The notes below the pieces were generated by a model, which ran no database searches, was not told the origin of the DNA, and worked only from the letters and a program-made list of their open reading frames with translations. A program made the position numbers and the translations under genes. Of a stretch of DNA of 47,934 nt, positions 133 to 40,605 are shown in pieces (positions within the stretch are counted from its first letter, which is position 1; every line of letters begins with the position of its first letter). The DNA is from a virus: the IMG/VR virus record IMGVR_UViG_3300033153_006421, positions 1 to 47,934 of that record; one strand, given 5' to 3'.

Positions 133-3100
133 ATGGCCGAGAGCGCAGAAGAAAGGACCCGTGTTCAGGACCTCATGAGCCAGATCGACCTCCTCGGTCC
201 GGCGCCGGAGGTCCCCGCTGCTGCGCCCGTCCAGGCGCGGACGACCCCGCCTCCCCCCGTCTCCGCGCCGGACGCCCCGAAACCGACAGCGCCGGACAAG
301 GAGGAGAAGCCCTTCGCAGACGTCCTCTCGAAGAAGGCGAAGGCTGCCGTGTCGACGGTGGCGGCGGCCGTGTCTCCCCGGGACACGCCGATGGAGAAGC
401 TCCGCAAGGACAAGGAGGTCAAGGCCCGGCTGCGTTTTCAGCAGGAGACGGTCAAGTCCTACCAGCAGGTCGCGGCACAGCTCAAGAAGCACGGCGGCGA
501 CAAGGCGGTCTCCCTGACCAGGTCCCCGGACGGCAGCGCCGCGTTCGATGTCGGCGCGGCGATGCAGGAGATCACGACCAACTACCAGCAGAAGTACGCC
601 CAGGAGATGTACGACAAGGACTGGAACAGCCTCAAGCCCGACACGCCCGAGTTCAGGAAGGTGCAGGAGGCGGCTGCATCCAAGGCGCTGGAAGAGATGG
701 CGCGGGCGGCCTCCCTCGGCCGTGGCGCCGTGTTCATCGATACCGACCCCGACAGGACGAACCGCTGGGCCGCTGAGCACATCCCAATGTGGTTCCCTGG
801 CGCGAAGCTGGCGGTATCGACGCTCCTGCCGGAAGCGTCCGTGCGAACCACCGTCGCGGGCGTGGGCGCTGTCCGTCCCACTGCGGCGGGCTCGCTGTCC
901 GTGCCTGTCATCGGGCCTGCTGTGAAGGCGCGTTTCGACCCGTACTCCCCGCCCGCGTCGGAGCTGGAGACCGACAGCCCGTCCGGCTTTCTTCTCCGGG
1001 CCATCAACGCCCCCATCAACGTGTTGTTGTCGAGCACGAAGTCCGCGGCGCAGGGCAAGGCACCGCACCTCCTCGATCCCGAGGGCGATGTCGTCAAAGC
1101 CATCGAGGCGCAGACAGCGCTGCGCGAGGAGAAGGGCGGTTTCAAGGCTGTCCTGATGGACCCCGAAGCGCGTAAAGAGAGCCTCGCCATCGGCAACAAG
1201 CTCGTTTCTGATTTGTGGGAGAAGGGCGACTGGGACAAGGCTGCGCTGACGGCGATGAGCGACTTCTCCGGCGTCGGAGGAGGGGACGAAAACGATCTTC
1301 GCCTCGTAGAGAATCTGCGAGACGACAAGCTCGCGACCCAAGCGGCTATCGAACAGTCGGAAGCCGTAGCCCAGTACACAGGTGTGGACCCTCTGGTCCT
1401 CAAGATGATCTTCACGCCGATCGGTATCGTGGCCGACTTCGGCCTCGACTTCACCACTCTCGGTTTCGTCGCGGCGGGTACAGGGGCACGTCTGCTCGGG
1501 GCGACCGAGGACCTTGCGGCTATCCGCAAGGTGTCGGCGAGCGCGGCTGCTGGCGAGATACCCGACCTGCGCACAGCCTTGCGCTTGGCTGACGACGCCA
1601 AGCCGGGCGGCGCCGCGATGCTCGAGATGAACGTGGCTGTCAAGTCCCGCCTCCCGCAGAAGGTCGTGGCGCAGCTCGATATCCTCCAGGCCAAGGTGCT
1701 CAATGCCGGCCAGGATGCCGCGGCGGCGCAGGCCAAGGTGGCGGCTGCTGAGACCACAGCAGAGAAGGCGGCGGCGTCCTGGGAGGCCGCGGAGGTCGCC
1801 CGCCGGGCGGCCGCGGCGCGTCTCGAGTACGCCACAGCAGAGCTGGATGTGCGCAAGGCGCTGGCCGAGAACTGGAAGACGGGCAAGGCAGACGAGGCGC
1901 TGCGGGCCGCGGAGCACAACTTCAAGATCGCTGACGAATCCCGTATCCGCGCGGAGCGTCTCGCGAAAGAGCTGCAGGCCCACCGAGAGACACACAAGGC
2001 CACATACAAGGCGATCGACGAGGGCGCAGGGAAGGTGTCCGAGGCCCGGGTCACCTACACCGAGGCCAAGCAGACGCTCGCTGACGCCAAGGAAGCGCTC
2101 AAGGTTGAGCGCACTCGTCTCCGTGAGCTCGGCGTCTCCCTGGAGTACAGCAAGGTCTCTCCGGGCGGACTCACCGAGGGCGCTACCAGGGCGCGCGTCG
2201 CGCAGAAGGCTGAGTTGAAAGAGGGCATCGCCGGCCTCAAGAAGAAGGACCACCCGCTGCGAGCTGCTGTGACCGAGGCCAAGACGGCGACGCAGGGCAG
2301 CAAGGCCGCCCTCGATGACACCGTGTTCCGCTTGAAGCGCACGCTCAAGGAGTCGCCCGCGGTCATCTCCAAGGGCAAGAAGCTCCACCAGGGCATGGTG
2401 CGGAACGCCGTTGCCGCAGGAGAGCGCAAGAGCCTGGGCCACGCTTGGATGCTCGGTGTGAAGCCAGAGGCGGCGACGGGCGTGCAGACGCTCGACGAGG
2501 CTATGGATGCCGTGCGCCTGACCAGACAGCAACACCTTGACGACCTGTCCGCCGCTGTGGAAGCGAGGAGGGCGGCGAAGAAGGCGTACGGCAAGGCCGA
2601 GACAGCCACCGGCAAGTCCCGCTTGGCAGCGAAGAAGAGCGCGGACCGTGTGGCCGCAGAGATGGAGTCGGCAGCGAACGTCGGATACCGCGCGGACTTG
2701 GACAAGTGGAGGGCGTCGTCCTGGCGCGAGGTCTTCGGCGAGGTGGCCGAGGACATCGAGGTCGGCACGAAGGCGTTGGCTACGTTGCCGAAGAAGGCGA
2801 CCAAGCCTGGGGACCTGCTCGCCAAGAGCACAGCACAGACGCTCGACGAGGGCGCCCGTGTCGTCGATGCCACAGCCCTCAAGCGGCAGCTCCGCGAGCA
2901 GTTCACCCGAGAGGGTGTGCAGTGGGTCACGGAGCGCGGTGGCGAGGCGGGCGCCAAGCTCAAGGAGGTGCTCGACAAGGGCGGCCTCGTCCGGCTCACT
3001 GCCGATGATGTGTTCGACCTGCAGCAGCTCAGCGACCCCCTCCGCATAGGCGCAGAGGCCACACACCCGAAGGCGAAGGCGATCGCTACAGTGCGCGCCT

Positions 3101-5985
3101 TGGAACAGGTCGGGCGTGACCCCGCCATTCTCGAAGCTGTCGCCCGGTCCGTGAAGGGCGTCTCGGAGCAGGGGGCGCGGGTCAGTGCCGTGCGCTGGGT
3201 GAAGAGGAAGGTCACAGGTCTGCGCGCAGCGTTCGACCCCCTGGCCGCCCGCATTGGCGAGACCAGCGAGGAGCTGGCGGCTGTGGTGCGGTCCATGGAC
3301 CAGATGATGGGCACGGCCTCCGACGAGCTGGCTCACGTGCAGCGGTCTGCCGGCCACGGATTCGGGCTGCGTGGTGTGGCGTCTACGAAGACCAGGGAGC
3401 AGGCGCTGGAAGATGCGCGGCTCGCTGTGTTTCGGTACATCGACGACACCGAGCCGATGGACATTTTCGGCAGGAAGACGTTCTTCAACACCGGCAGTGA
3501 CTCGCTGTGGGCGCAGTTCCGGCGGCAGATTCTCTCTGACGACCGGGCCAAGGGCATGGTCGGTGAGAGCACCTTCCGAGGCATCGATGGGCTCACCGTG
3601 GAGGAGCGCGCGAGCAGCGCCGCCGAGTTCGCTATGGCGACCGGTGCAGAGTTCGCCAAGGGCGTGCCGCCTGGCGGCGAGAAGGCGGCGCTCAAGGCCG
3701 TCGAGGAGGTCGCGAAGAAGGCAGGGGTCAAGGCCAAGAAGGCGGTAGCCGAGAACAAGCTCCCGCCGTCGCTGCCGCTGACCGGGCTGTCGCGCATGTG
3801 GCTTCCCTCAGGGCAGCAGCTGGACCCGCGAAAGTCGCAGATGCTGCTGAACAGGACGTGGGCGCTGCTCAAGGATCCGGAGATCACCACCTATGAGGCG
3901 TTCGCGGAGCGACTGCGAGCGTTCACGGCCAGCGAGGCGGCCTTCGGCACGGCGGACGCCGCTGCCCGTGCCGTGCCGATGGGCGCCATGAACGTGGCCC
4001 ACGGGGTGGTACAGGGCAGGACCAACCAGCTGTTCTCCCGCGCCATCGGCGGGATGGTGACGCCGAAGGAGGCACAGCAGGCGAACATGCTCCTGCTGGG
4101 CGACCCGATGGGCGTGACGGACTGGCGGTCCGCTGTTGCCGTGCTCAACAGGATGGGCGCCCCGTTCACCCAGGACGCCGTCCGCCAGGGCGCGAGGGGC
4201 AAGCAGACGGCAGCCGTCTACCGGGAGCTGATCGTCGTCGGACAGGACGGCTCGGGCAAGGCGATGTTCTTGGAGCAGAACCTGGCCCGGGAGCTGGACA
4301 ACATCGCGGACAGGGTGGTCAAGGAGGCCAGCCGCCGCTACGCCAAGCCGCGGTCTTTCGACCAGCTGACGGCGGGGAACGCCATCGCGGCGCCGCTGTC
4401 CTTGTGGAAGCAGTCGGTGGTCACAGGGCTGGGCGTGCCCAACCCTCGGTTCTGGACGAACAACATCATGGGCGACTTCTCCCAGCTGTGGCTGGGCGAG
4501 GGGCTCGGCGTGGCCGGGCGCATGTCCGCGCAGAACCTGCTGACGAACCTGCCTTGGGCTCGCACGTACCTCGACGTGGTCGGCAAGGAGATGTCCGCGG
4601 TGTCTGGGGCGCACTCGCTGCCGAGCGCCGTGATGAGCCTCGTCTTTGACCCCCTCGGCGCGAAGGTGTGGAACGGGATGGACGGGGTGCTGACCACGAC
4701 GAAGGGGCACTCCCTCCCCTACAGTCGCGTGCGCGAGTGGATGGCCGAGGATGTTCTGGACACCTTCGTCAACGAGGAGTTCATGCGGGCGTCCTCGAAG
4801 ATCGCCCCCGACTGGATGACGAAAGCCAGCAACTGGCAGGCTGATATCAACAACTTCGGCAACTACGTGCAGCAGCGGCAGCGCGGCAACCTCTACATGG
4901 ACCTGCTGCGCCGCGGCTACTCCAGGTCGGAGGCGAGGGCTCGGACCCTCGACGCGCTGTATGACTGGAGCCACGGGCTGAGCGAGTGGGAGGCGCGCTA
5001 CCTCACCAAGGTCATGCCGTTCTACCGGTTCTGGAAGCTCGCCGGCAAGCAGGTCGGCCTGGCCGCCATCGAGCCGCTGACCAAGCCGACGGTGGCCATG
5101 GAGAGGTGGATGAAGGGAGAGGGCGGGCTCCTGCGCATCAAGCAGCAGCTCCTCGCCAAGGAGTACGGCACGGACTTCCTTCTCCGCCCAGAGTGGGAAG
5201 AGGGCATGTCCGAGGTGGAGCGGCAGAAGACCGAGATGGCCCGCTACCTCCGCCCCGAGTGGTACACCACCAGGATGGGGGCTGCTCTGGACCCCGTCAC
5301 GGACCAGCAGCGGGACTACTTCAAAAGGGCGAGGGGCAAAGACTACGACTACCTCTACTCGGCGGCCCCGCCGGCCACGGTGGTTGACATTGCTGATATG
5401 GGCATGTCCATGGCGTTCTTCCTGGCCGGCCTTGGCGACCTCGCAGCAGAGAAGGCGGGGCTCGACATGCCCGGCGGGATGACCCGGGCGCCCGACTGGG
5501 AATTGAATTTTTGGAAGCCGCTGTTCAACGTGAGCGGTCCCTTCGTCGAGGAGACCCTGGGCGCTGGTCTCGAGGCTGTCGGGGTGGACGTGGACGCCAG
5601 GCGCTACGGCGACACCACCAAGTTGTCCCGCGGTGAGGTAGCCGTGCTGTCCACGATGGGCGTCCCTGTGTTCCCAGACCCCGACCCGGACAAGCCCGGC
5701 GTGATGCGGGCGGCGACCGCCTCCGTGTTGATACTCCGCAACATGCCGCTCTTCCTGCAGGCGTCTCCCGTGCTCAACGCGGCGTACTTCGAGAATCCCG
5801 GCTGGGAGGAAGGCCCAGGCCAGGGGCTCGCTTGGGGCATCGGGCAGTGGACGAACGCGTGGAAGCGCACGCCCTACAGCAAGGACGAGGCGCTCACATA
5901 CCGCCAGTTCAAGATCGCCGAAGCCATCGAGCGCGCAAAGGTGGCATCAGAGCAGGATGTGCGCGAGGCGAAGACGCTCAAATAG
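133..5985 (+). CDS. giant virion protein, putative internal/ejection protein
   Basis: A 1950-residue protein. Residues about 1-80 are Pro/Ala-rich and disordered. Residues about 510-720 form a long Ala/Glu/Lys-rich coiled coil, and Lys/Glu-rich helices continue to about 1250. The last 550 residues are different: Trp- and Pro-rich, with segments such as NPRFWTNNIMGDFSQLW and MPFYRFWK. Very large helical proteins placed after the head genes of short-tailed phages are usually internal (ejection) proteins that enter the host envelope with the DNA. That role is inferred from size and position. No lysozyme, protease or polymerase motif was found. Starts at ATG with GGAGCAGGAGCAGGGG upstream. Alternatives are a large polyvalent virion protein or a tail protein. 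Confidence 0.75.
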   Translation: MAESAEERTRVQDLMSQIDLLGPAPEVPAAAPVQARTTPPPPVSAPDAPKPTAPDKEEKPFADVLSKKAKAAVSTVAAAVSPRDTPMEKLRKDKEVKARLRFQQETVKSYQQVAAQLKKHGGDKAVSLTRSPDGSAAFDVGAAMQEITTNYQQKYAQEMYDKDWNSLKPDTPEFRKVQEAAASKALEEMARAASLGRGAVFIDTDPDRTNRWAAEHIPMWFPGAKLAVSTLLPEASVRTTVAGVGAVRPTAAGSLSVPVIGPAVKARFDPYSPPASELETDSPSGFLLRAINAPINVLLSSTKSAAQGKAPHLLDPEGDVVKAIEAQTALREEKGGFKAVLMDPEARKESLAIGNKLVSDLWEKGDWDKAALTAMSDFSGVGGGDENDLRLVENLRDDKLATQAAIEQSEAVAQYTGVDPLVLKMIFTPIGIVADFGLDFTTLGFVAAGTGARLLGATEDLAAIRKVSASAAAGEIPDLRTALRLADDAKPGGAAMLEMNVAVKSRLPQKVVAQLDILQAKVLNAGQDAAAAQAKVAAAETTAEKAAASWEAAEVARRAAAARLEYATAELDVRKALAENWKTGKADEALRAAEHNFKIADESRIRAERLAKELQAHRETHKATYKAIDEGAGKVSEARVTYTEAKQTLADAKEALKVERTRLRELGVSLEYSKVSPGGLTEGATRARVAQKAELKEGIAGLKKKDHPLRAAVTEAKTATQGSKAALDDTVFRLKRTLKESPAVISKGKKLHQGMVRNAVAAGERKSLGHAWMLGVKPEAATGVQTLDEAMDAVRLTRQQHLDDLSAAVEARRAAKKAYGKAETATGKSRLAAKKSADRVAAEMESAANVGYRADLDKWRASSWREVFGEVAEDIEVGTKALATLPKKATKPGDLLAKSTAQTLDEGARVVDATALKRQLREQFTREGVQWVTERGGEAGAKLKEVLDKGGLVRLTADDVFDLQQLSDPLRIGAEATHPKAKAIATVRALEQVGRDPAILEAVARSVKGVSEQGARVSAVRWVKRKVTGLRAAFDPLAARIGETSEELAAVVRSMDQMMGTASDELAHVQRSAGHGFGLRGVASTKTREQALEDARLAVFRYIDDTEPMDIFGRKTFFNTGSDSLWAQFRRQILSDDRAKGMVGESTFRGIDGLTVEERASSAAEFAMATGAEFAKGVPPGGEKAALKAVEEVAKKAGVKAKKAVAENKLPPSLPLTGLSRMWLPSGQQLDPRKSQMLLNRTWALLKDPEITTYEAFAERLRAFTASEAAFGTADAAARAVPMGAMNVAHGVVQGRTNQLFSRAIGGMVTPKEAQQANMLLLGDPMGVTDWRSAVAVLNRMGAPFTQDAVRQGARGKQTAAVYRELIVVGQDGSGKAMFLEQNLARELDNIADRVVKEASRRYAKPRSFDQLTAGNAIAAPLSLWKQSVVTGLGVPNPRFWTNNIMGDFSQLWLGEGLGVAGRMSAQNLLTNLPWARTYLDVVGKEMSAVSGAHSLPSAVMSLVFDPLGAKVWNGMDGVLTTTKGHSLPYSRVREWMAEDVLDTFVNEEFMRASSKIAPDWMTKASNWQADINNFGNYVQQRQRGNLYMDLLRRGYSRSEARARTLDALYDWSHGLSEWEARYLTKVMPFYRFWKLAGKQVGLAAIEPLTKPTVAMERWMKGEGGLLRIKQQLLAKEYGTDFLLRPEWEEGMSEVERQKTEMARYLRPEWYTTRMGAALDPVTDQQRDYFKRARGKDYDYLYSAAPPATVVDIADMGMSMAFFLAGLGDLAAEKAGLDMPGGMTRAPDWELNFWKPLFNVSGPFVEETLGAGLEAVGVDVDARRYGDTTKLSRGEVAVLSTMGVPVFPDPDPDKPGVMRAATASVLILRNMPLFLQASPVLNAAYFENPGWEEGPGQGLAWGIGQWTNAWKRTPYSKDEALTYRQFKIAEAIERAKVASEQDVREAKTLK

Positions 5986-9144: not shown

Positions 9145-11022
9145 ATGCCGGTATTTGCAGGCGTACGGAACGCGGTCCAGCACCTGGTGGAGCTGGTAAC
9201 GGGCGGCGCTCCTGTTAGTTCGGGCAACCCGCTCCCCGTCGGCCTGATAGCCGCAGTCTCTGACGGCAACACCACGACCACGCCTCTCGGCGCTGGCGTG
9301 AAGTTCCCTGGTGTGTGGACGCAGTCCCTGAGTCACGGCATCGTCAGCGTGGGTGCGTGCTCCGACCAGGACTCCGCGACAGACGGGCTCAAGATCGAGT
9401 GGTCGAGCGACGGCGTGAACACGTGCCAGGATGACGTATTCTCGATCCTCGGTGGGGCGATCGGCAGCGGCAAGACGTTCACCTTCTCGCCCCCGACCGA
9501 GTATTTTCGGGTCACCTACGAGAACGGAGCCACCCCGCAGACCCGGTTCAGCCTGCAGACGATCCTCCGTCCCGGGTTCAAGCCGTCATCGCACCGGATG
9601 CAAGACGACATCGTGGCAGAGGACGACGCCGAACTGGTCAAGGCCGTGTTGACCGCCCAGAAGCCCGACAAGACATACGCGAACATCGACGCGACCACGG
9701 GAGGCAACCTCAAGGTCAGCATCGAGGAGCAGAACGGCACAGCGGATCTCGCAACCGAGACCACACAGCAGGACGGGAGCCAGAAGGCCCAGGTGACGCC
9801 AACCCTCGGCACCCCGTTCGTCGACCCGTTTGGACTCCCCATCAACACGAGCCCCGAGAGTTTGTGGAACGCCACGATGCTAGCGGACACAAACTCGTAC
9901 CTGTGGCGCGACCACAGCGGCGACGGTGTGGGCGGGGCGGCAGCGAACACGTCCCGTGCATGGGACAGCGGTAAGGCCAGCGCCCTCCTGAAGATCGGCG
10001 ACGGTGGGTCCTCGCCCGACGGCACATTCGTGCTCGCATCCGGCCCCTACGTCCCGTACATCGCCGGGTTCGGGCAGGGCATAGACATCACGGGCACGTT
10101 CGACTCAGCAGCCGCCAACGTCGTGCAGGAGGCCGGCTACTACTCGGTCGACGCCGTCACTGGCCTGCCGTACACCGGCATCCTGATGCGCCTGGACAGC
10201 ACGGGGCTCTACCTGATCCTGATCAACCGGGGCGTGGTGGTCTCGAGCGTCGAACAGGCAGATTGGAACGGGTTCGCGACCGGGGCCACGTTCGATCCAA
10301 CGACGCGCTTCATCATCCACCCGGATCTGCAGTGGCTGGGCAACGGAGCTGTGCGCGTGATCGCCGACATGGGCTCGATGGTGAAGGGCATCCTCCATAC
10401 GTTCGACAACGTGCAGATCGGCGACTCGCCCTACACCGAGTCGGCCACGCTCCCGGTGACCTACTGCATCCGGGCAGATGGTGGAGCGGTGGGAACCGTA
10501 GCGGTCATGCGGCAGACGTGTGCGTCGGTGAAAACCTACGGCGTCCACGACATCCCGGGCGTCACATTCCCGATTGACGGCGGGTTCGCTGTCGGCGCGC
10601 TCGCTGCGATCGGAACCTCGCTCACACCGATCATGTCGGTCAGGAGCACCGACCCGTTCATTCCGCTGTTCCCCAGGGGGATTCAGCTTTTCGCCGTCGA
10701 CGAGCCCATCTACTGGCAGACCCGGGCCAGGGCCACGCTGACGGCGCCCGACTGGGCGGCAGCAATCGACCCGGCTGGGGCGCCGTTCGACCTGGACCTG
10801 GCTGCCACCGCAGCATCAGGTGGAAGGCCCATTGCCCACGGAATAGTCGCGGCGGGCGCGAAGTTCTCAGCCGGCGAGACTGGCGGGATCGACTTCGGCG
10901 GCAAGGAGTGGCTGTCGATGAGCCCTGACGGCACCTTCGACTGGGTGACCATCATGGCCCGCGTGCTCAACGGCGCGGGCACGAATGTAGCCGCGGCCCC
11001 CACATTCCGGGCGATCATGTGA
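9145..11022 (+). CDS. putative tail fibre / receptor-binding protein
   Basis: A 625-residue protein with a GGGAGG site before ATG. Residues about 1-150 are a compact beta domain. Residues about 160-235 are a linker of the kind seen in metagenomic phage tail proteins, with TGGNLKVSIEEQNG and ETTQQDG. Residues about 240-480 form a second beta domain resembling a jelly-roll carbohydrate-binding module (YYSVDAVTG, GILMRLDSTGLYLILINRG). A short beta-rich C-terminal domain follows. The last gene before lysis is a common place for host-recognition proteins. No enzymatic motif was seen. Confidence 0.5.
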   Translation: MPVFAGVRNAVQHLVELVTGGAPVSSGNPLPVGLIAAVSDGNTTTTPLGAGVKFPGVWTQSLSHGIVSVGACSDQDSATDGLKIEWSSDGVNTCQDDVFSILGGAIGSGKTFTFSPPTEYFRVTYENGATPQTRFSLQTILRPGFKPSSHRMQDDIVAEDDAELVKAVLTAQKPDKTYANIDATTGGNLKVSIEEQNGTADLATETTQQDGSQKAQVTPTLGTPFVDPFGLPINTSPESLWNATMLADTNSYLWRDHSGDGVGGAAANTSRAWDSGKASALLKIGDGGSSPDGTFVLASGPYVPYIAGFGQGIDITGTFDSAAANVVQEAGYYSVDAVTGLPYTGILMRLDSTGLYLILINRGVVVSSVEQADWNGFATGATFDPTTRFIIHPDLQWLGNGAVRVIADMGSMVKGILHTFDNVQIGDSPYTESATLPVTYCIRADGGAVGTVAVMRQTCASVKTYGVHDIPGVTFPIDGGFAVGALAAIGTSLTPIMSVRSTDPFIPLFPRGIQLFAVDEPIYWQTRARATLTAPDWAAAIDPAGAPFDLDLAATAASGGRPIAHGIVAAGAKFSAGETGGIDFGGKEWLSMSPDGTFDWVTIMARVLNGAGTNVAAAPTFRAIM

Positions 11023-12522: not shown

Positions 12523-13005
12523 GTGCGCCGCCGCCTGCACCCCGTCGTCACCCTCTTCATCGGCGGCATGCTGGTAGCCACTACGGCCGCCGCCCAGGAG
12601 CACGCCGCTGCTGACGAGGCGTGGGGTGCCGTCATCTACGTGCTCGGCGGCCTGGGGGCCGTCGCCGCGTTCATCATCGCCATCACCACAGCGTACAGCC
12701 GCGTCTCCAAGCCGTTCAACGCGGTCAAGGACAGGGTCACGGAGCACCACCAGATTCTGGTGAAGCCGGTGAAGGGCCAGGATGCGCTGGTGGACAGGGT
12801 AGACGCAGCAGAAACCGCGCTCAAACGCCTGGAAATGCTCCCCGAGTCCGTTGACGAGTTGCGCACCATGCTCCACAATGGGATCGAGAGGCGTGAGCAG
12901 GCCGAGCAACGCCGGGAGCGGTTGATGGAGCGAGTCGAGGGCCACCTGCAGCGCCTGGCTGAAGCGCCCACCGGACCAGTCCGGGGCCACCTCGATGAGC
13001 AATGA
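12523..13005 (+). CDS. spanin-like membrane protein with coiled coil
   Basis: A 160-residue protein with a GTG start preceded by AGAGGAAG. An N-terminal signal-like segment (residues 8-25, ending ATTAAAQ) is followed by a second hydrophobic span (about 33-57) and then a long charged coiled coil (about 60-150, rich in Glu/Arg/Leu). The layout resembles holin/i-spanin accessory proteins that bridge membranes during lysis. Its end overlaps the next gene by 11 nt. Confidence 0.5.
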   Translation: MRRRLHPVVTLFIGGMLVATTAAAQEHAAADEAWGAVIYVLGGLGAVAAFIIAITTAYSRVSKPFNAVKDRVTEHHQILVKPVKGQDALVDRVDAAETALKRLEMLPESVDELRTMLHNGIERREQAEQRRERLMERVEGHLQRLAEAPTGPVRGHLDEQ

Positions 13006-13390
13006 TGTCTCCGTCGTTGTCGCCCTCGAGCTGACCCAGGCATGGCTTGATGACGCCCGCTCCAGCGGGGAGCGCATCGACACCAGCGTCCGCGCGATGG
13101 CACCTCACCGGAGTCGCGATGCCTCAGCGGTCAAGCGCTCACTCCGCGACGGGCTGCTGAGGATCGGGCAGAAACTGAGCCATCGCGACGAGGACGGCTG
13201 GCTCATCTGCGAGCGCTACGTGGGTACGTCATGGGACGGCGAACTGCTGGCGTACGTAACGTACGTGCGCCGGGAGCCGGACCGGGAGATCGCCTACTAC
13301 CGGGGGCAGGTCGACGAGTTGCTGGGCCTGGGACGGGAGGTCCCGGAGTGGCTCACGGATCGGATTGAGTGGTTGAGGGCTCGGTCATAG
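12995..13390 (+). CDS. hypothetical protein at the end of the late operon
   Basis: A 131-residue soluble protein rich in Arg, Asp and Glu with a C-terminal Trp-containing helix. No family recognised. It overlaps the preceding gene by 11 nt. At its 3' end it overlaps the convergent methyltransferase gene by 38 nt, tail to tail. A small GGGAC/GTCCC hairpin near 13330-13345 is the only terminator candidate seen. Confidence 0.6.
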   Translation: MSNDVSVVVALELTQAWLDDARSSGERIDTSVRAMAPHRSRDASAVKRSLRDGLLRIGQKLSHRDEDGWLICERYVGTSWDGELLAYVTYVRREPDREIAYYRGQVDELLGLGREVPEWLTDRIEWLRARS

Positions 13391-14456
13391 CCGCCCGAAT
13401 GAACGTCGCTGCCACCTCTGCGTTGATCGCGTTGCCGTAGCCCTTCAGCCGCCCGACGCGATTACTTCTTGCACGACGAGCCATGCCTGAAAGCCAGGGC
13501 TCGCCTCGTCCCACTCCTCGGGCAATCCCATGAGCCAGCGGGGAAGTGCCGGGTTCAACTGGCCTTGCCCTCCCGTCTGCACAGGGGATCCATTCGCAGT
13601 CGCACCAGAAGCCAGGCTGACCACCTGTTCCTGCAACGGCCGGCCCTCGTTCTTGATCTGCCTGTCGAGCGTCTTGCTGTTCTGGTTCTTGCCCGACCCG
13701 TGACCGTCGCTCTTGGTCGGAGTCGCCCACCCCGCCATCCTCGAGGCGTCCACCAAAGTCACTCCCGCGTGGTGCTTGCTGTCCGGGTTGTGTCGTGTCG
13801 CCGTGGCGTTGGCGGCGTTGGCGGCGTCCTGTTTCGTTGGCGTGGGCCAACCCGCCAGAACTGACACTGCCGCCAAGTCCGGCCCGTGTTTCCGGGCACA
13901 TTCGATGATCGCCCCCTTCTCCGACCTGACACCTTTGGTTGCGAGCGCCTTGGTTGGTGTGGGCCACGAAGAACAGCCGCTGCCGGAGGTGCGGTGCGCC
14001 GACGCTACAAGCCGGCAGAGACGCCGCCCCGACGGCATATCCCACGCCTTCCAGGTCATTCGATACAAGGTCGAACCACGTCCGGCCAGCTCGGCTCGCA
14101 ACCTGCTCTCCAAAGATGACTGGAGGACGGCACTCGCGAATGAGCCGGAACCACTCGGGCCAGAGGTGGCGAGGATCCTCGAAGCCTCCACCACTACCGG
14201 CGGCAGAAAACGGCTGGCACGGACAGGAGCCGGTCCACACTTCTCGGTCATCGGGCCACCCAGCGAGCCTGAGCGCGTGGGACCAGACGCCGATCCCGGC
14301 GAAGAAGTGGGCTTGGGGGGCGTCAACAAGGTCTGCTGGCTGGACATCGGCGATGCTCCTTGGGTCGATACGGCCAGGCGTAATGTGGTCGGCGTCTACC
14401 AGGTTGTTGAGCCACTCGACGGCGAAGGGTTCGATCTCGTTGTAGTAGGCGCTCAC
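13353..14456 (-). CDS. DNA (cytosine-5) methyltransferase
   Basis: A 367-residue C5 methyltransferase. Motif I is FAGIG (about 52-56), motif IV PCQPFS with catalytic C80, motif VI a variant FGEQV (E117; ENV in most enzymes), motif VIII QRLFFVA (about 159-165), motif X GYGNAIN near the end. The region 170-310 is the Gly/Arg/Gln-rich target-recognition part. The GTG at 14456 is chosen because VSAYYNEIEPFAVEWL is the usual N-terminus of this phage subfamily and because it overlaps the preceding TGA (GTGA). No restriction partner is present, so it likely modifies phage DNA against host restriction. A second long frame overlaps it. Confidence 0.92.
   Translation of the reverse strand: MSAYYNEIEPFAVEWLNNLVDADHITPGRIDPRSIADVQPADLVDAPQAHFFAGIGVWSHALRLAGWPDDREVWTGSCPCQPFSAAGSGGGFEDPRHLWPEWFRLIRECRPPVIFGEQVASRAGRTWFDLVSNDLEGVGYAVGAASLPACSVGAPHLRQRLFFVAHTNQGARNQRCQVGEGGDHRMCPETRAGLGGSVSSGGLAHANETGRRQRRQRHGDTTQPGQQAPRGSDFGGRLEDGGVGDSDQERRSRVGQEPEQQDARQADQERGPAVAGTGGQPGFWCDCEWIPCADGRARPVEPGTSPLAHGIARGVGRGEPWLSGMARRARSNRVGRLKGYGNAINAEVAATFIRAAMTEPSTTQSDP
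13445..14347 (-). CDS. overlapping-frame ORF within the methyltransferase gene (WPTP-repeat family), translation unproven
   Basis: A 300-codon frame lies entirely inside the methyltransferase gene in another frame. It reads as a recurrent phage protein type: MSSQQTLLTPPKPTSSPGSA at the start, then LQSSLESRLRAELAGRGSTL, YRMTWKAWDMPSG, repeated WPTPTK/WATPTK units, and a terminal LNPALPRWLMGLPEEWDEA. Similar chains are commonly annotated in phages. They might be truly dual-coded, or only a shadow of the conserved methyltransferase frame. No clear ribosome-binding site precedes the ATG. Confidence 0.35.
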   Translation of the reverse strand: MSSQQTLLTPPKPTSSPGSASGPTRSGSLGGPMTEKCGPAPVRASRFLPPVVVEASRILATSGPSGSGSFASAVLQSSLESRLRAELAGRGSTLYRMTWKAWDMPSGRRLCRLVASAHRTSGSGCSSWPTPTKALATKGVRSEKGAIIECARKHGPDLAAVSVLAGWPTPTKQDAANAANATATRHNPDSKHHAGVTLVDASRMAGWATPTKSDGHGSGKNQNSKTLDRQIKNEGRPLQEQVVSLASGATANGSPVQTGGQGQLNPALPRWLMGLPEEWDEASPGFQAWLVVQEVIASGG

Positions 14457-14671
14457 TTTGCCTGCCCCACCAGCCGCTGCAACACCCCGACATCCACCTC
14501 CACAGTCGACACCCGCCGCCCACACCCGAGGCACTCCCGCTGCCGCCATATCCACCCGTCCGGGGCCAGGACGCTGCACAAGCCCCGGATCGCGCTGGGA
14601 ATCCATGCCGTGGACCTGTGGTCGCGGGTGTCCGTGACTCGGGTTTCGCCGTGGCACCGGTGGCAGGTCAC
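14453..14671 (-). CDS. NrdR-like zinc-ribbon protein
   Basis: A 72-residue protein beginning (GTG) TCHRCHGETRVTDTRDH and ending with RQRECLGCGRRVSTVEVDV. Two CxxC pairs and the REC..C.RR..T.E pattern match the N-terminal zinc ribbon of the NrdR repressor, but the ATP-cone domain is absent and about 20 residues are inserted. It is linked to both neighbours by 4-nt GTGA overlaps. A small DNA-binding regulator is the likely role; control of ribonucleotide reductase is not implied. Confidence 0.6.
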   Translation of the reverse strand: MTCHRCHGETRVTDTRDHRSTAWIPSAIRGLCSVLAPDGWIWRQRECLGCGRRVSTVEVDVGVLQRLVGQAK

Positions 14672-21117: not shown

Positions 21118-21281
21118 GAGACACCTCCCTCTTGGGCCTTTGCGGCTTCGAGTGCCGCGACGCGCTGCTCCAGATCGCCGAGAGACACTCGCAGTTTCTC
21201 TACTTCCTTCTCCCGCTCTTTCGCGATCTCTTCCTGCAGTCGACGTAGATCGCCCCACTGGACATCGTAGAAGTTGCTCAT
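21114..21281 (-). CDS. 55-residue coiled-coil protein
   Basis: It begins MSNFYDVQWGDLRRLQEEIA and continues as an uninterrupted Glu/Lys/Leu heptad helix to GDLEQRVAALEAAKAQ. Both ends make 4-nt overlaps with the polymerase gene and the next gene. Directly after the DNA polymerase, it could be a small partner or dimerisation peptide; untested. Confidence 0.6.
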   Translation of the reverse strand: MSNFYDVQWGDLRRLQEEIAKEREKEVEKLRVSLGDLEQRVAALEAAKAQEGGVS

Positions 21282-23182
21282 GTTGGCTCCCAGGGAATCA
21301 GCTCGCCGTCCACCGTGACCGGCTTGGCGCCCTTGTACCAGCGGCGCATCGCGTGCGCCTCCACGCGGATTTTCACGTTGGGCGTCTCGACGCGCATGGC
21401 GGCGACCATGGTGTCAGTCAGTGCCCCCGCGAACACTGTCACCATGTCCTCGGGTACCTCGGCAATGATCTCGTCATGCACGAAGAGGACAGGCCGACAG
21501 CCTTGCAGGTCGCCCACGTAGCAGCGGTCGGCCAGGGCGAAGAGCGCACGCTTCGCGCCATCAGCGGCGGGGCCTTGGAACAAATTATTACAGCCTGGCG
21601 TGTAGGTGCAGCCGCCCCGCTTGCGTCCGCTGCGTGGCAATTCAAGGGTGAACGGGTTGCCGAACGGGTCCAGGTCGTTGACCCAGGAGAAGTGCTCAGC
21701 CATCTCGGGCCAGCGCTCCATCCACAGGTTCTTGAGCATCCAACCCTTCTGCTCCCTGGCGAGCAGCGCCTCGGGGATGCGGACCCTGTACGATGCCCAG
21801 GCGAAGGCGGCGAAAGAGTCAGGCCCCATCCCGCCAGGCAGGCCGAAGTTGGCCGCCTTGGAGAGCTGCCGCATGTCGATGAGCTTTTTGTCCCCGTCGA
21901 GGTACCGCGCGTAGGCGTCGTCATAGTACAGATTGAGCAGCGTGGCGGCCATGTGGACATGCGGGTCGAGCCCGTCATTGATGGCCTCGGCCAAGTCGCT
22001 CTTCCCGAACCGGTCGATGCACGACTGGGCCAGGGTGCACAGCTCGACGAACGAGTAGTCAGCGCCGACGAACACGAAGCCCGGCCGGGGCACGAAGCAC
22101 TCCCGGAGCCCGCCGCGGCGGTGGAGGTTCTGCGTGTTCGGTCTGTACGCTGACGTGCGCCCCGTCTCCATGATCGTGTTGTAGCTGTGGTTGATCGCCT
22201 TCTCGGTACCCAACCGGAGGTAGTCCCCCCACGACGAGATGATCTTCTCGGCGCCCGACTCGTCAGCATACGCCATGAGGTCCTTGTCGCCCGACCCGAG
22301 CAGCGACTCCGCATCGGTCTTGACGCTGCCGCCGGGAGTGGTCGGGACCTCCTTTCCTCGGGCCTCGTAGCCCTCGGCGCAGCGCCGCTTGAACTCGGCC
22401 ATGTTGCGCCCGAGCGCATCGTGGCGGTCGGCGCCCCTGCCCTTGCGCGTCCACTTGAGCAGCCCGGCATCGAGCAGCTTCTTCTCGACGGCTGCTTGCT
22501 CCTCGCCCAAGCCGGTCAGGAACGGCTCGACCAGGTCGCCATCGGTACGCAGCCCCCAGCAGGACATGAGGTGCAGCGCCCACGCTGCCTGGGCCTGCTC
22601 GATCTCGTTGACGATGAGCCCGTCCGCGGTCAGATAGTCGAGCTTCGCGGCGTATTCCGTCTGGGCTACGAAGATCCGGCGGGTCGCTGTGGCGTCGCCG
22701 ATGGCGTAGATCAACGCCTCATCGGGCCAGGACGACAGGGGCACGCCGTCCAGCTCTGCGTAGCGGAGCCTCCACGTGTCTTCGCCCTTCGCCATGGACA
22801 CGCCGAAGTGCCGCTCGGACAGGGCCGACAGCGAATACTTCGGGCGGTTGTTGTGGACGTGATCATAGGTCAGCCGCCCCTCGGAGAGCATGAGCAGCTG
22901 GTCGCGCACCTTCGTGTCGCTGACACGCCCGGCCGTGTACGCGGTGAAGATGGCTGGGAGTAGGTGCGGCGCCGCCTCGGCCAGCACGGCCATATCAAAG
23001 GCGACGTTGTGGCCGACGAACCGCACCGAGGGGTCCGCCAGCCACCGCTTCATCTTCTTGATCGCCGCATCCGCCAGCTCGATGTCTGCCTTGTCGCCCG
23101 TGTCGTAGGTCAAGCAGACCATCTTGGGGGCCAACTGTCCCGGCTCAATCAGGTAGGTCTCAGTGTCGAATGCGACGATCAT
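21278..23182 (-). CDS. family A DNA polymerase with 3'-5' exonuclease
   Basis: A 634-residue replicative polymerase. The exonuclease is intact: D6/E8 (AFDTETY), N59 and D63 (GHNVAFD), Y159 and D163 (YAIGD). Polymerase motif A is D375YSFVE380, motif B R438QLSKAANFGLPGG451, motif C H569-D570-E571. The motif B Tyr (Taq Y671) is Gly450, while the dNTP-selecting Phe is kept (F446). No 5'-3' nuclease domain. The ATG at 23182 is chosen because the exonuclease motif begins at residue 2; codons upstream belong to the previous gene. Its ribosome-binding site is weak. Confidence 0.93.
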   Translation of the reverse strand: MIVAFDTETYLIEPGQLAPKMVCLTYDTGDKADIELADAAIKKMKRWLADPSVRFVGHNVAFDMAVLAEAAPHLLPAIFTAYTAGRVSDTKVRDQLLMLSEGRLTYDHVHNNRPKYSLSALSERHFGVSMAKGEDTWRLRYAELDGVPLSSWPDEALIYAIGDATATRRIFVAQTEYAAKLDYLTADGLIVNEIEQAQAAWALHLMSCWGLRTDGDLVEPFLTGLGEEQAAVEKKLLDAGLLKWTRKGRGADRHDALGRNMAEFKRRCAEGYEARGKEVPTTPGGSVKTDAESLLGSGDKDLMAYADESGAEKIISSWGDYLRLGTEKAINHSYNTIMETGRTSAYRPNTQNLHRRGGLRECFVPRPGFVFVGADYSFVELCTLAQSCIDRFGKSDLAEAINDGLDPHVHMAATLLNLYYDDAYARYLDGDKKLIDMRQLSKAANFGLPGGMGPDSFAAFAWASYRVRIPEALLAREQKGWMLKNLWMERWPEMAEHFSWVNDLDPFGNPFTLELPRSGRKRGGCTYTPGCNNLFQGPAADGAKRALFALADRCYVGDLQGCRPVLFVHDEIIAEVPEDMVTVFAGALTDTMVAAMRVETPNVKIRVEAHAMRRWYKGAKPVTVDGELIPWEPT

Positions 23183-23186
23183 AGGC

Positions 23187-23654
23187 TCAGTCCGCCGGGT
23201 AGAAGAAGTGCTTCGTGAAGGCGCCACCGTTCTTGTTGGTCGCGCCCTGCGTTTCGACCTTGACCTTGTGCCCGGCCAACAGCTTGCCGCCATCGTCCGG
23301 GATGGGCTGGTCGTCGGCGTCGACTCCGCAAGCCGCCGCGGCCATCTCGTCGGTGATCTCCGTCTCGGGCACACCAGCGAGGCCGGCGAGGCAGGCGCGG
23401 GTATCGGCCAGGCCGAAGCCCCAACCGTCATCGAGGTTCGCGTAGAAGGTCAGCGTCGTGCCGACCATGTCCTCGTGCGTGGAGGACGAATCGACCCGGC
23501 CTTCCATGACGAACGCCTTCTTGCCGATCTTGCCCGGCTTCTTGCTGATGATGAGCTTGCACGCCACACACTCGAGGGTGCCGCGGAACTCGGGTGGGAT
23601 GTACTTGCCGCCGCTGCCGCCCTCGGCGTTCTTGATGTTGTCGAAGATGCCCAT
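23187..23654 (-). CDS. putative single-stranded-DNA-binding protein
   Basis: A 155-residue protein starting MGIFDNIKNAEGG. It is beta-rich (CKLIISKKPGKIGKKAFVMEG, TLTFYANLDDGW) and ends in a short FFYPAD. Proteins of this shape next to phage polymerases (DUF669-type) are thought to bind single-stranded DNA with an OB fold. The acidic SSB tail is lacking, so the role is inferred from shape and from neighbours. AGGAG lies 10 nt before the ATG. Confidence 0.5.
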   Translation of the reverse strand: MGIFDNIKNAEGGSGGKYIPPEFRGTLECVACKLIISKKPGKIGKKAFVMEGRVDSSSTHEDMVGTTLTFYANLDDGWGFGLADTRACLAGLAGVPETEITDEMAAAACGVDADDQPIPDDGGKLLAGHKVKVETQGATNKNGGAFTKHFFYPAD

Positions 23655-38805: not shown

Positions 38806-40605
38806 ATGTTCACAGACGCGAATCGCAAGGCCATCATCGGCGCCCACGTCGAACGGGCGAAGGTCGAGCACCTCGACTGGGACCGCTACCGCAGCTTCTA
38901 CACCTGCTCCCAGTGGGGGGACACGAACCCCGAGGGTGACGAGGTTTTCCTGGAAGGCGGTGCGCTCTTCGGCTTCGTGGACACCATGGTGGCGACCATC
39001 TGCCCACCGAACCCACAGGTCACGGTGGACTCGCGGCGGGAGGACGAGGACACGAGGATGGCGGCGCGCTACCGCGAGGCGCTCATCAACCAGTCGTTCG
39101 ACCGCGGGCGCATTCACGAGACGTGCTGGGAGATCGCGACGGACGCGAGCGTCTACCCCCGCGGGGTGGTCAAGGTGGTCTGGGACAAGGCGACCCGCCG
39201 TCCGAGCTACCTTCGGGTCGACCCCAGGCTTTTCTACTTCGATCAGACAGCCAGGCGCTGGGACTACATCCGCTACGCCATCGAGGCCACCCCGCTGACG
39301 ATGGCGGAGTTCCAAGCGAGGGTGAAGGCATCTCGCGGGAAGCACAAGAAGAAGAAGCTCTACGATCCCGACGTGGCGAAGAGGGCGCAGGGGTCGAACT
39401 ATCCGGAGTGGCTCCTCGACAAGCGAAAGCCGAACGAGGCGAACCAGAAGCTCCTCTCCGTGTTCAAGTGGGTCATCGTCTACGAGTTCTTCGACTTCAC
39501 GAACAACCGCATCTACCACATGCTCGAGGGCGTCGACGAGCCGCTCTTCGAGGGAGAGCTGCCGTACGTATTCGTGCCGAACCCCTTCCGGATCCTGACC
39601 TTCAACAGCAACATGGAGGACCTCGGCGGGATGGGCGACGCCCAGATCATCGAGGAGCCGCTCGGCCGCGCCAACGAGATGGACACCCTGGAGATCCGCT
39701 TCGCCCAGACGTCCATCCCCCACCCGGTCGTCGACGAGAATCAGATCGAGGACATCGAGAAGGCGATGGCCGACTACAGCAATCGCAACTCGCCGGGGGA
39801 CGTGTGGCGGTTGAAGTTGCGCCAGGACGCCCGGGTGAATGACGCGGTGGGCTGGACGCAAACAGCGGCCATGAGCCCGAACTGGAAGAGCATCCGGGAG
39901 CGCATCTCGGAGGACACGCTGTTTCGCCTGGGCATGCCCCAGTACCAGCGGGGCGTGGCGGGCACGAGCCGGGTGGCGACTGACCTGTCGCTCATCAACC
40001 AGGCGCTACAGACGCGCCAGGGGCGCCGCGGGCGCAAGCTCGACGACGTCATCCAGTTCATGGCGGAGTCGACGGTCGGACTCTACGAGGAGTTCCTGTC
40101 CACGGACACGACCCTGCCTGTCAGGATTGGGCGAAAGGAGTTCCTCAAGGTGGCGCGCGAACACCTCCTGGTCCGCGACCCCGAGAAGGCCGAGCAAGTC
40201 CTCAAAGATGGTGGGATGGTCGAGCCCCCGCTGGACGTGGACTACAAGGTCATTCCCTACAGTCCGGCCCTGAACAACAAGTCGGCCCAGCTCGGCCGGC
40301 TTACGCAATTCTTGGAGTTCCTGGTCCAGTCCCCTGATGTCGATGTGCGGAAGCTCTCGCTCAAGCTGCTGGACCTGCTCGACATGGAAGACATCGAGAT
40401 GGACGCGGCCACGAAGCAGCAGGCCACCCAGGCCCAAGCTGCCCAGGCGATGGCGATGCAGGGCCAGGGCACGCCCCCCAGCAACGACACGGTCGAGGGA
40501 GGGGCGCTGGCCGGCGACGCGACCGAGCAGGCACCGACGGGCGCCATGGGCGCCATGGAGGGCGGCGCAGGCCACCCGTTCCCCCAACCAGCGAACATGG
40601 GATGA
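38806..40605 (+). CDS. portal protein
   Basis: A 599-residue head-tail connector typical of podoviruses. It follows TerL by 3 nt with an AGGAGATAGGGC leader. N-terminal helical region, wing and stem segments (FGFVDTMVATICPPNPQVTV; FAQTSIPHPVVDENQIEDIE) and a Gln/Ala/Met-rich C-terminal tail. Twelve copies should form the channel through which DNA enters. Confidence 0.85.
   Translation: MFTDANRKAIIGAHVERAKVEHLDWDRYRSFYTCSQWGDTNPEGDEVFLEGGALFGFVDTMVATICPPNPQVTVDSRREDEDTRMAARYREALINQSFDRGRIHETCWEIATDASVYPRGVVKVVWDKATRRPSYLRVDPRLFYFDQTARRWDYIRYAIEATPLTMAEFQARVKASRGKHKKKKLYDPDVAKRAQGSNYPEWLLDKRKPNEANQKLLSVFKWVIVYEFFDFTNNRIYHMLEGVDEPLFEGELPYVFVPNPFRILTFNSNMEDLGGMGDAQIIEEPLGRANEMDTLEIRFAQTSIPHPVVDENQIEDIEKAMADYSNRNSPGDVWRLKLRQDARVNDAVGWTQTAAMSPNWKSIRERISEDTLFRLGMPQYQRGVAGTSRVATDLSLINQALQTRQGRRGRKLDDVIQFMAESTVGLYEEFLSTDTTLPVRIGRKEFLKVAREHLLVRDPEKAEQVLKDGGMVEPPLDVDYKVIPYSPALNNKSAQLGRLTQFLEFLVQSPDVDVRKLSLKLLDLLDMEDIEMDAATKQQATQAQAAQAMAMQGQGTPPSNDTVEGGALAGDATEQAPTGAMGAMEGGAGHPFPQPANMG

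Follow-up and report, generated by a model that had tools for sequence, protein, structure and literature searches.

The methyltransferase locus and its nested frame

The window (the whole stretch of DNA analysed, 47,934 nucleotides of IMG/VR record IMGVR_UViG_3300033153_006421) is a tailed phage genome, with PHROG matches that include the first three features below; its ORF 133-5985 (1950 aa) is without a PHROG match. On the minus strand lies a C5-cytosine methyltransferase gene, here called f1, which holds within it a second open reading frame, f2.

21278-23431 (-): DNA polymerase (phrog_17), by PHROG match
38806-40605 (+): portal / head-tail connector, by PHROG match
9145-11022 (+): virion structural protein, by PHROG match
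13353..14456 (-): f1, C5-cytosine methyltransferase, putative catalytic polypeptide (PF00145, phrog_363 and M.HhaI matches)
13445..14347 (-): f2, nested ORF in the +1 frame, 300 aa, proposed specificity (beta) subunit (phrog_1008; purifying selection)
14348..14456 (-): N-terminal part of f1 only, internal control (f2-frame dNN/dNS 1.07)
13353..13444 (-): C-terminal part of f1 only, internal control (f2-frame dNN/dNS 1.07)
14356..14361 (-): internal Shine-Dalgarno AAGGAG, 8 nt 5' of the f2 ATG (read from the sequence; site conserved in relatives)
14217..14219 (-): f1 catalytic Cys80 codon (PCQ, motif IV), invariant in the alignment of relatives and aligned with PCQ of M.HhaI
13428..13439 (-): f1 motif X core YGNA, 3' of the f2 stop (invariant alignment columns)

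The full f1 ORF spans 13353..14657 and comprises 434 aa counted from the first GTG. We picked the GTG at 14456 by alignment, as it agrees with the start in relatives, which gives a protein of 367 aa. This protein matches PF00145 (E 6e-18, 65.8 bits against a Pfam gathering cut-off of 22) and phrog_363 (E 4e-75), and aligns to M.HhaI over residues 70-168 (71-173 in M.HhaI), spanning motifs IV-VIII. Motifs I, IV (PCQ), VI (EQV, motif VI-like), VIII and X are present, with numbers that we take to follow the standard C5 scheme and the M.HhaI alignment. Motif IX is not recognisable in the f1 polypeptide; where the in-frame relative from Rothia phage Spartoi has LNPEFSEWMMGLPKGW, f1 reads RPVEPG..PLAHG. 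The 3' end of f1 is convergent with a plus-strand ORF (12995-13390), with an overlap of 38 bases (13353-13390), and no terminator-like site was found at the junction itself.

The f2 frame starts with ATG, lies entirely within f1 and is offset from it by one base, such that the third base of each f2 codon is the first base of an f1 codon. Its product matches phrog_1008 (E 1.5e-34, f2 residues 9-282) and a second PHROG, phrog_31772; no Pfam family above cut-off and no NCBIfam family was found, and the f2 profile gave 0 matches to PDB sequences up to E 1. An earlier note on this DNA, made from the letters alone, had described a 300-codon frame inside a cytosine methyltransferase gene. The ORF listing contains both frames as described, and all protein strings that were quoted occur in f2. 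The pairing of WPTPT units with VAHTN/LAHAN/VGDSD in the methyltransferase frame is likewise present, with the third unit in f2 reading WATPTK.

Coding and selection in the two frames

The f2 frame is kept open across relatives. We assembled f1-selected sets from the best 80 of 587 and the best 80 of 347 candidates, ranked by their similarity to an alignment made up entirely of f2 carriers; these sets therefore cannot give the frequency of f2 among all C5 methyltransferases. Among the 124 f1-selected genes, the +1 frame is stop-free in 118 (48 of 52 viral and 70 of 72 genomic genes) over roughly 210-345 codons, while the +2 frame contains 3-20 stops in every one (124/124). Four of the six exceptions are the usual f2 terminator, two codons 5' of the f1 YGNA; the frame is broken inside f2 only in L156 and L231, leaving 122 of 124 genes without an internal stop. 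When synonymous f1 codons were permuted, 367 stops were expected in the f2 frame of these genes and 6 were seen. A larger set of 202 genes (222 distinct f1 from 250 loci, of which 20 without both motifs were dropped; 78 + 52 + 72) contained 21 stops against 566 expected when permuted within each gene, and only 4 of the 21 are inside f2, the rest being at its usual end. As a control, 301 neighbouring ORFs gave 2647 stops, with 2664 expected. Taken alone, the window has one stop, the terminator of f2 itself, where 2.48 are expected, and the difference is not significant (permutation p 0.17).

In the window, the locus has a GC content of ~0.66. The earlier note had asked whether the frame stays open in low-GC homologues and had named frequent stops among close relatives as the outcome that would speak against it; the frame is open at a locus GC of 0.41-0.50, and stops are rare, as counted above. 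In a relative from a Salmonella Seunavirus (L253), f2 is open at GC 0.44. Among the low-GC f1-selected relatives (L092-L250), the overlap between f1 motifs I and X is GC-richer than its surroundings (0.53 versus 0.41 in L214), as expected if two frames restrict codon choice.

To estimate frame-specific rates we applied a script of our own, modelled on OLGenie but distinct from it, to 75 independent pairs of 70-97% identity. Outside the overlap, the f2-frame dNN/dNS is 1.07 (0.90-1.30) on one side and 1.07 (0.89-1.29) on the other, i.e., neutral. In the four regions within the overlap it falls to 0.58, 0.52, 0.48 and 0.23 (0.18-0.29 for the last), indicating purifying selection that is strongest in the motif-IX region. 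The f1 dNN/dSN values in the same four regions are 0.15, 0.30, 0.64 and 0.46. Both frames are therefore purified inside the overlap and the second is neutral outside it, the pattern by which overlapping genes are recognised; the constraint on f2 that the note had proposed to look for is confined to the overlap. In its module region f1 is under mild selection (0.64), and this part of the protein may do more than merely pass through.

Differences per site tell the same story. In the part 5' of the f2 start, the values at f1 positions 1/2/3 are 0.08/0.07/0.34. The overlap with motifs I-VIII gives 0.09/0.06/0.23 and 0.12/0.08/0.17, the module region 0.32/0.21/0.27 and the motif-IX-like region 0.14/0.06/0.09; in the part 3' of the f2 end they are 0.15/0.15/0.33. 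Only in the module and motif-IX regions does the wobble base of f2 change fastest, thus exactly where f2 dominates. When the window is set against all other loci the trend recurs, fainter because the window is distant: differences at position 3 amount to 0.54 in the part 5' of f2 and to 0.32 in the motif-IX region. We also considered the repeats as an element acting at the DNA level only, which is ruled out by the f2 wobble base being specifically the fastest site.

The start of f2 is conserved as well. Its ATG lies 109 nt into f1, and an open ATG occurs at the identical position in 136 of 213 relatives. GGAG followed by 8 nt and ATG is found at this site in 126 of the 204 relatives with the local f1 motif. 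In the same 204 relatives, AGG makes up 36% of the Arg codons within the Shine-Dalgarno, compared with 7% elsewhere in f1 (p 2e-31); for the Asp codon from which the ATG is formed, GAT is used in 163 and GAC in 32, compared with 37% GAT elsewhere (p 6e-39).

Because stops are few across relatives, the overlap is constrained between neutral flanks and the internal start is conserved, we conclude that f2 is a gene and not a shadow frame. The earlier note had left two readings side by side, a genuine pair of overlapping genes of unknown function or a mere shadow frame that databases list as a family; stops, frame-specific rates and start signal uphold the former and reject the latter. Its remark that the two frames constrain each other is borne out by the stop permutation, the per-site differences and the frame-specific rates.

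Relatives, modules and gene layouts

A tblastn search with f2 matched 184 of 50,697 phage records at E 1e-5. With the f2 of a relative as query, 227 phage records were matched at E 0.01, including epsilon15, N15, K1 coliphages and BASEL phages. At least 589 stretches in IMG/VR encode a relative, and relatives of f1 in GTDB genomes include planctomycete, Leptospiraceae, epsilonproteobacterial, acidobacterial and also proteobacterial contigs. Most of the records listed carry one annotated gene at the locus; K1ind2 has both as nested CDS. A 'Mte8-like protein' is named for K1 phages (PMC5582158), and the word 'overlap' is absent from that paper. A full-text search of the open-access literature found no description of this overlap, though a paper outside it could exist. 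The Citrobacter version of the gene is matched in 68 of 5426 complete E. coli genomes, and a prophage copy in E. coli NZ_CP041110 (L353, 1933222-1934391) is annotated as two partial cytosine methyltransferase pseudogenes.

Several copies depart from the usual arrangement. In Pseudomonas phage LPPA33 (L257, OR188720, 1471-2117), f2 is intact and annotated, and f1 is without its N-terminal part; the upstream ORF 645-1511 stops directly 5' of FAGIG, so that either f2 is retained without a whole f1 or a recent deletion is possible. This is the nearest approach to a stand-alone f2, of which no clear case was found. Escherichia phage CarlMeissner (L252, MZ501054, 1368-2222) has a whole f1, with PCCQ as motif IV, and its f2 frame runs into a stop shortly after the match begins. 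Gene 58 of phage N15 (L255, 2435-3277) has an early stop in f2, after which the frame is open again with a later ATG, and N15 may make a shortened f2. The copy in Dunaliella viridis virus SI2 (L254, HQ332136, 1413-1817) has lost f1 motifs I-VIII and retains the last f2 module and the motif-IX-like part; it is probably a remnant.

f2 contains repeated units followed by a conserved segment, and a further part is set apart by structure prediction:

13991..14140 (-): f2 residues 70-119, predicted helix and beta-hairpin, the part of f2 predicted best, over f1 motifs VI-VIII (AlphaFold2 block means pLDDT 80-92 over about residues 71-120)
13850..13966 (-): f2 putative target-recognition module 1 (WPTPTK, residues 128-166), of a module family common to in-frame methyltransferases
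13730..13849 (-): f2 putative target-recognition module 2 (WPTPTK, residues 167-206), 55% over 33 aa to the +1-frame module of L271, E 8e-5
13607..13729 (-): f2 putative target-recognition module 3 (WATPTK, residues 207-247), same repeat family
13508..13558 (-): f2 motif-IX-like segment LNPALPRWLMGLPEEWD (residues 264-280), invariant core, aligned to LNPEFSEWMMGLPKGW of Spartoi

In module 3, W207, T209 and P210 are nearly invariant. The methyltransferase of Spartoi is encoded in a single frame; between its motifs VIII and X lie one PTP module and the segment LNPEFSEWMMGLPKGW. The f2 profile matches this segment significantly, at 19.8 bits, and its position in the DNA relative to motif X is as in f2; the same profile found no motif-IX-like segment in f1 proteins. 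In a profile of Spartoi relatives the segment is collinear with motif IX of M.HhaI, RKLHPRECARVMGYPDSY, with an insignificant score (-3.3 bits).

We classed the Spartoi relatives by layout (91 loci minus 14 duplicates, 3 without a hit and 4 'other', i.e., 70). Everything is in frame in class A (11 loci). Class B (29) has motifs I-VIII in one frame, followed by stops, with modules, IX and X in +1. Class C (30) has the modules in +1 and everything else in frame 0, which stays open. The window family is termed class D. A tree of the catalytic half, with 68 of the 70 classed rows, requires at least 13 switches among layouts A-C, a clear example of protein domains that change reading frame in evolution. 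An internal start is seen in 23 of 30 class C loci, usually GTG with AGGAG and at a different site, and a Shine-Dalgarno-led start just 3' of motif VI in 9 of 29 class B loci. In three split genes (L339, L340, L348) a further PTP-like unit of the VSDTFTGNLKSTQQKEGSLHSVTL type lies 3' of motif X at the very end of the +1 ORF, as though modules were not confined to the target-recognition position.

The target-recognition regions of classes A and B matched 21 and 56 of 209 f2 proteins by blastp, at best with E 7e-9 and 61-68% identity over 31-41 residues; the same search gave 0/202 matches to f1, 0/209 to reversed f2 and 0/209 to shuffled f2. In the reverse search, f2 proteins matched frame 0 in 6 of 11 class A loci and the +1 frame in 18 of 29 class B and 16 of 30 class C loci, with another frame matched once only; the window's own f2 matched four class C +1 arrays (E 2e-5 to 4e-3). 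The modules of f2 thus share ancestry with in-frame target-recognition regions of other phage C5 methyltransferases. In known enzymes of this kind, target-recognition domains lie between motifs VIII and IX. The AlphaFold model of a class A protein (L286, pLDDT 84.6) has its module in this place, and its match to M.HhaI spans the entire chain (Z 23.5, 256 residues, 3.1 A). The AlphaFold2 model of f2 itself is poor overall (pLDDT 61, pTM 0.30) and confident only in the helix and hairpin (residues about 70-120) and the C-terminal helices. Its best PDB matches, with a Foldseek E of 0.94 and a VIA-align Z of 2.8 (56 residues), carry no weight, and four BFVD matches had E<=0.001, one of them named methyltransferase, one uncharacterised and two without names.

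The units are exchanged between close relatives. Across the 183 of 209 f2 proteins taken into the analysis, there are 1-6 PTP-like units per protein. In 418 pairs the catalytic DNA is at least 85% identical, and in 233 of these the module part is less than 50% identical; identical modules recur in new combinations. Such exchange of tandem units between close relatives is how a multi-TRD array is recognised. In the window family, f1 reaches its motif X only by way of the cassettes, and both frames must stay open. The location of motif X would also explain why both frames are open in some layouts and not in others; in class B, X is in the second frame and f1 stops.

A proposed two-subunit methyltransferase

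We consider it likely, on the evidence of sequence comparison, that f1 and f2 form a two-subunit C5-cytosine methyltransferase with the layout of M.EcoHK31I, in which f2 is a specificity subunit built of exchangeable cassettes. In this model f1 would be made as the catalytic polypeptide (motifs I-VIII and X), and ribosomes starting at the internal Shine-Dalgarno and ATG would produce f2 in infected cells. The f2 protein would bring the target-recognition modules, one per WPTPT-like unit and so three here, together with the motif-IX-like segment absent from f1. It would bind f1 to give an active enzyme and set its specificity. Exchange of modules as cassettes would change the recognised sequence, each swap rewriting both proteins. 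Orphan methyltransferases of phages protect phage DNA from host restriction, and this is the likely benefit here as well. With less assurance, we lean towards a widespread class of phage methyltransferases whose specificity subunit is a nested cassette array, retargeted by two-frame cassette swaps, with modules that move between layouts.

Four other explanations were weighed. One takes f2 for a shadow, a GC-rich frame left open through f1 conservation and the rarity of stops, with its family an annotation artefact. The window by itself, with its GC content and a stop count compatible with chance, would agree with it; we give it next to no probability given 6 stops against 367 expected in the 124 f1-selected genes with control ORFs at expectation, the open frame at locus GC 0.41-0.50, dNN/dNS below 0.6 inside and ~1.07 outside, an f2 wobble base that is fastest in two regions and a conserved internal start signal. 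It is very improbable, too, that f1 works alone with a degenerate target-recognition region and that f2 is the decaying relic of a frame once used: constraint on f2 peaks in the motif-IX region (0.23), the start signal is maintained and 122 of 124 f1-selected genes are without a stop inside f2, although CarlMeissner has kept f1 with a broken f2 frame, and f1 retains motif X and mild constraint through its module region (0.64).

The other two accept f2 as coding. A programmed +1 frameshift near motif VIII could fuse the catalytic part of f1 to the f2 modules, with no separate f2 protein; in the 29 split genes, where motifs I-VIII are followed by stops and the rest is in +1, such a shift would yield a whole enzyme, and only 9 of them have a Shine-Dalgarno-led start just after motif VI. 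In the window family, however, motif X is in f1 and the shift would need undoing, and a fusion needs neither the selection on f2 5' of motif VIII (0.58, 0.52) nor the conserved start 109 nt into f1; moreover, the end points of frame 0 differ in sequence among the 13 split genes viewed. We regard a frameshift as improbable, and think no better of the proposal that f2 is a real protein but no methyltransferase subunit, for instance a regulator, an antirestriction protein or a host-takeover factor carried by the gene. That f2 is without a known family outside PHROGs, that ~120 residues 5' of the modules have no known function and that LPPA33 retains f2 with an f1 lacking its N-terminal part all accord with such a role, yet the modules and motif-IX-like segment correspond to the in-frame target-recognition part of other C5 methyltransferases, the very part missing from f1.

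A specificity-subunit role would turn a recurrent database family of unclear standing into a defined part, the putative specificity subunit of a phage methyltransferase. If true, what is annotated as a phage methyltransferase is in hundreds of cases half of an enzyme, any target site predicted on the basis of f1 by itself would be wrong, and the arrays would provide a naturally occurring collection of DNA-recognition modules that can be exchanged. In bacteria and phages, few long overlaps between genes come with two independent internal controls, here a neutral flank at either end. This would be among the largest families of long same-strand overlapping genes known in them, labelled ordinary methyltransferases until now.

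Two-polypeptide C5 methyltransferases are already known. M.EcoHK31I, which recognises YGGCCR, is one; Lee and co-workers reportedly found in 1995 that the gene for its smaller polypeptide lies within that for the larger one, in a different frame, and that both polypeptides are needed. M.AquI (CYCGRG) is another. In one account, the larger M.EcoHK31I polypeptide has motifs I-VIII and X, with the predicted TRD placed in this subunit, and the smaller has motif IX, while in M.AquI motifs I-VIII and the later motifs are divided between the two polypeptides (PMC3404938). By that account, f1 resembles the larger M.EcoHK31I polypeptide in having motifs I-VIII and X without IX, and f2 is nested in another frame of the larger gene, as is reported for M.EcoHK31I. 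The likeness is one of motif layout: f2 comprises 300 aa with an array of exchangeable units, its modules sit in the nested protein and not in the larger subunit as that account has the TRD, and its motif-IX-like segment is linked to Spartoi, whose own alignment to motif IX of M.HhaI is weak. By the same account, the M.AquI layout recurs in the 29 split genes of class B, whereas the window keeps motif X in the catalytic polypeptide and its second gene is nested.

Spartoi gp40 and the other class A proteins have the xPTPxxxD modules and the LNPxFSxWMMGLPxGW segment as in f2, but all in one frame, and the +1 frame of Spartoi is full of stops. The multispecific methyltransferases of Bacillus phages SPR and phi3T and others have several exchangeable target-recognition units in one variable region, a likeness to f2 in architecture; they are single-frame, single-polypeptide enzymes. 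The label 'DNA methyltransferase' on phrog_1008 and phrog_31772, both matched by f2, hides that this family is the nested frame and that the catalytic protein is phrog_363. What is new with respect to the known two-polypeptide enzymes is the proposed f2 subunit with its module array, the frame-switching layouts and the wide occurrence.
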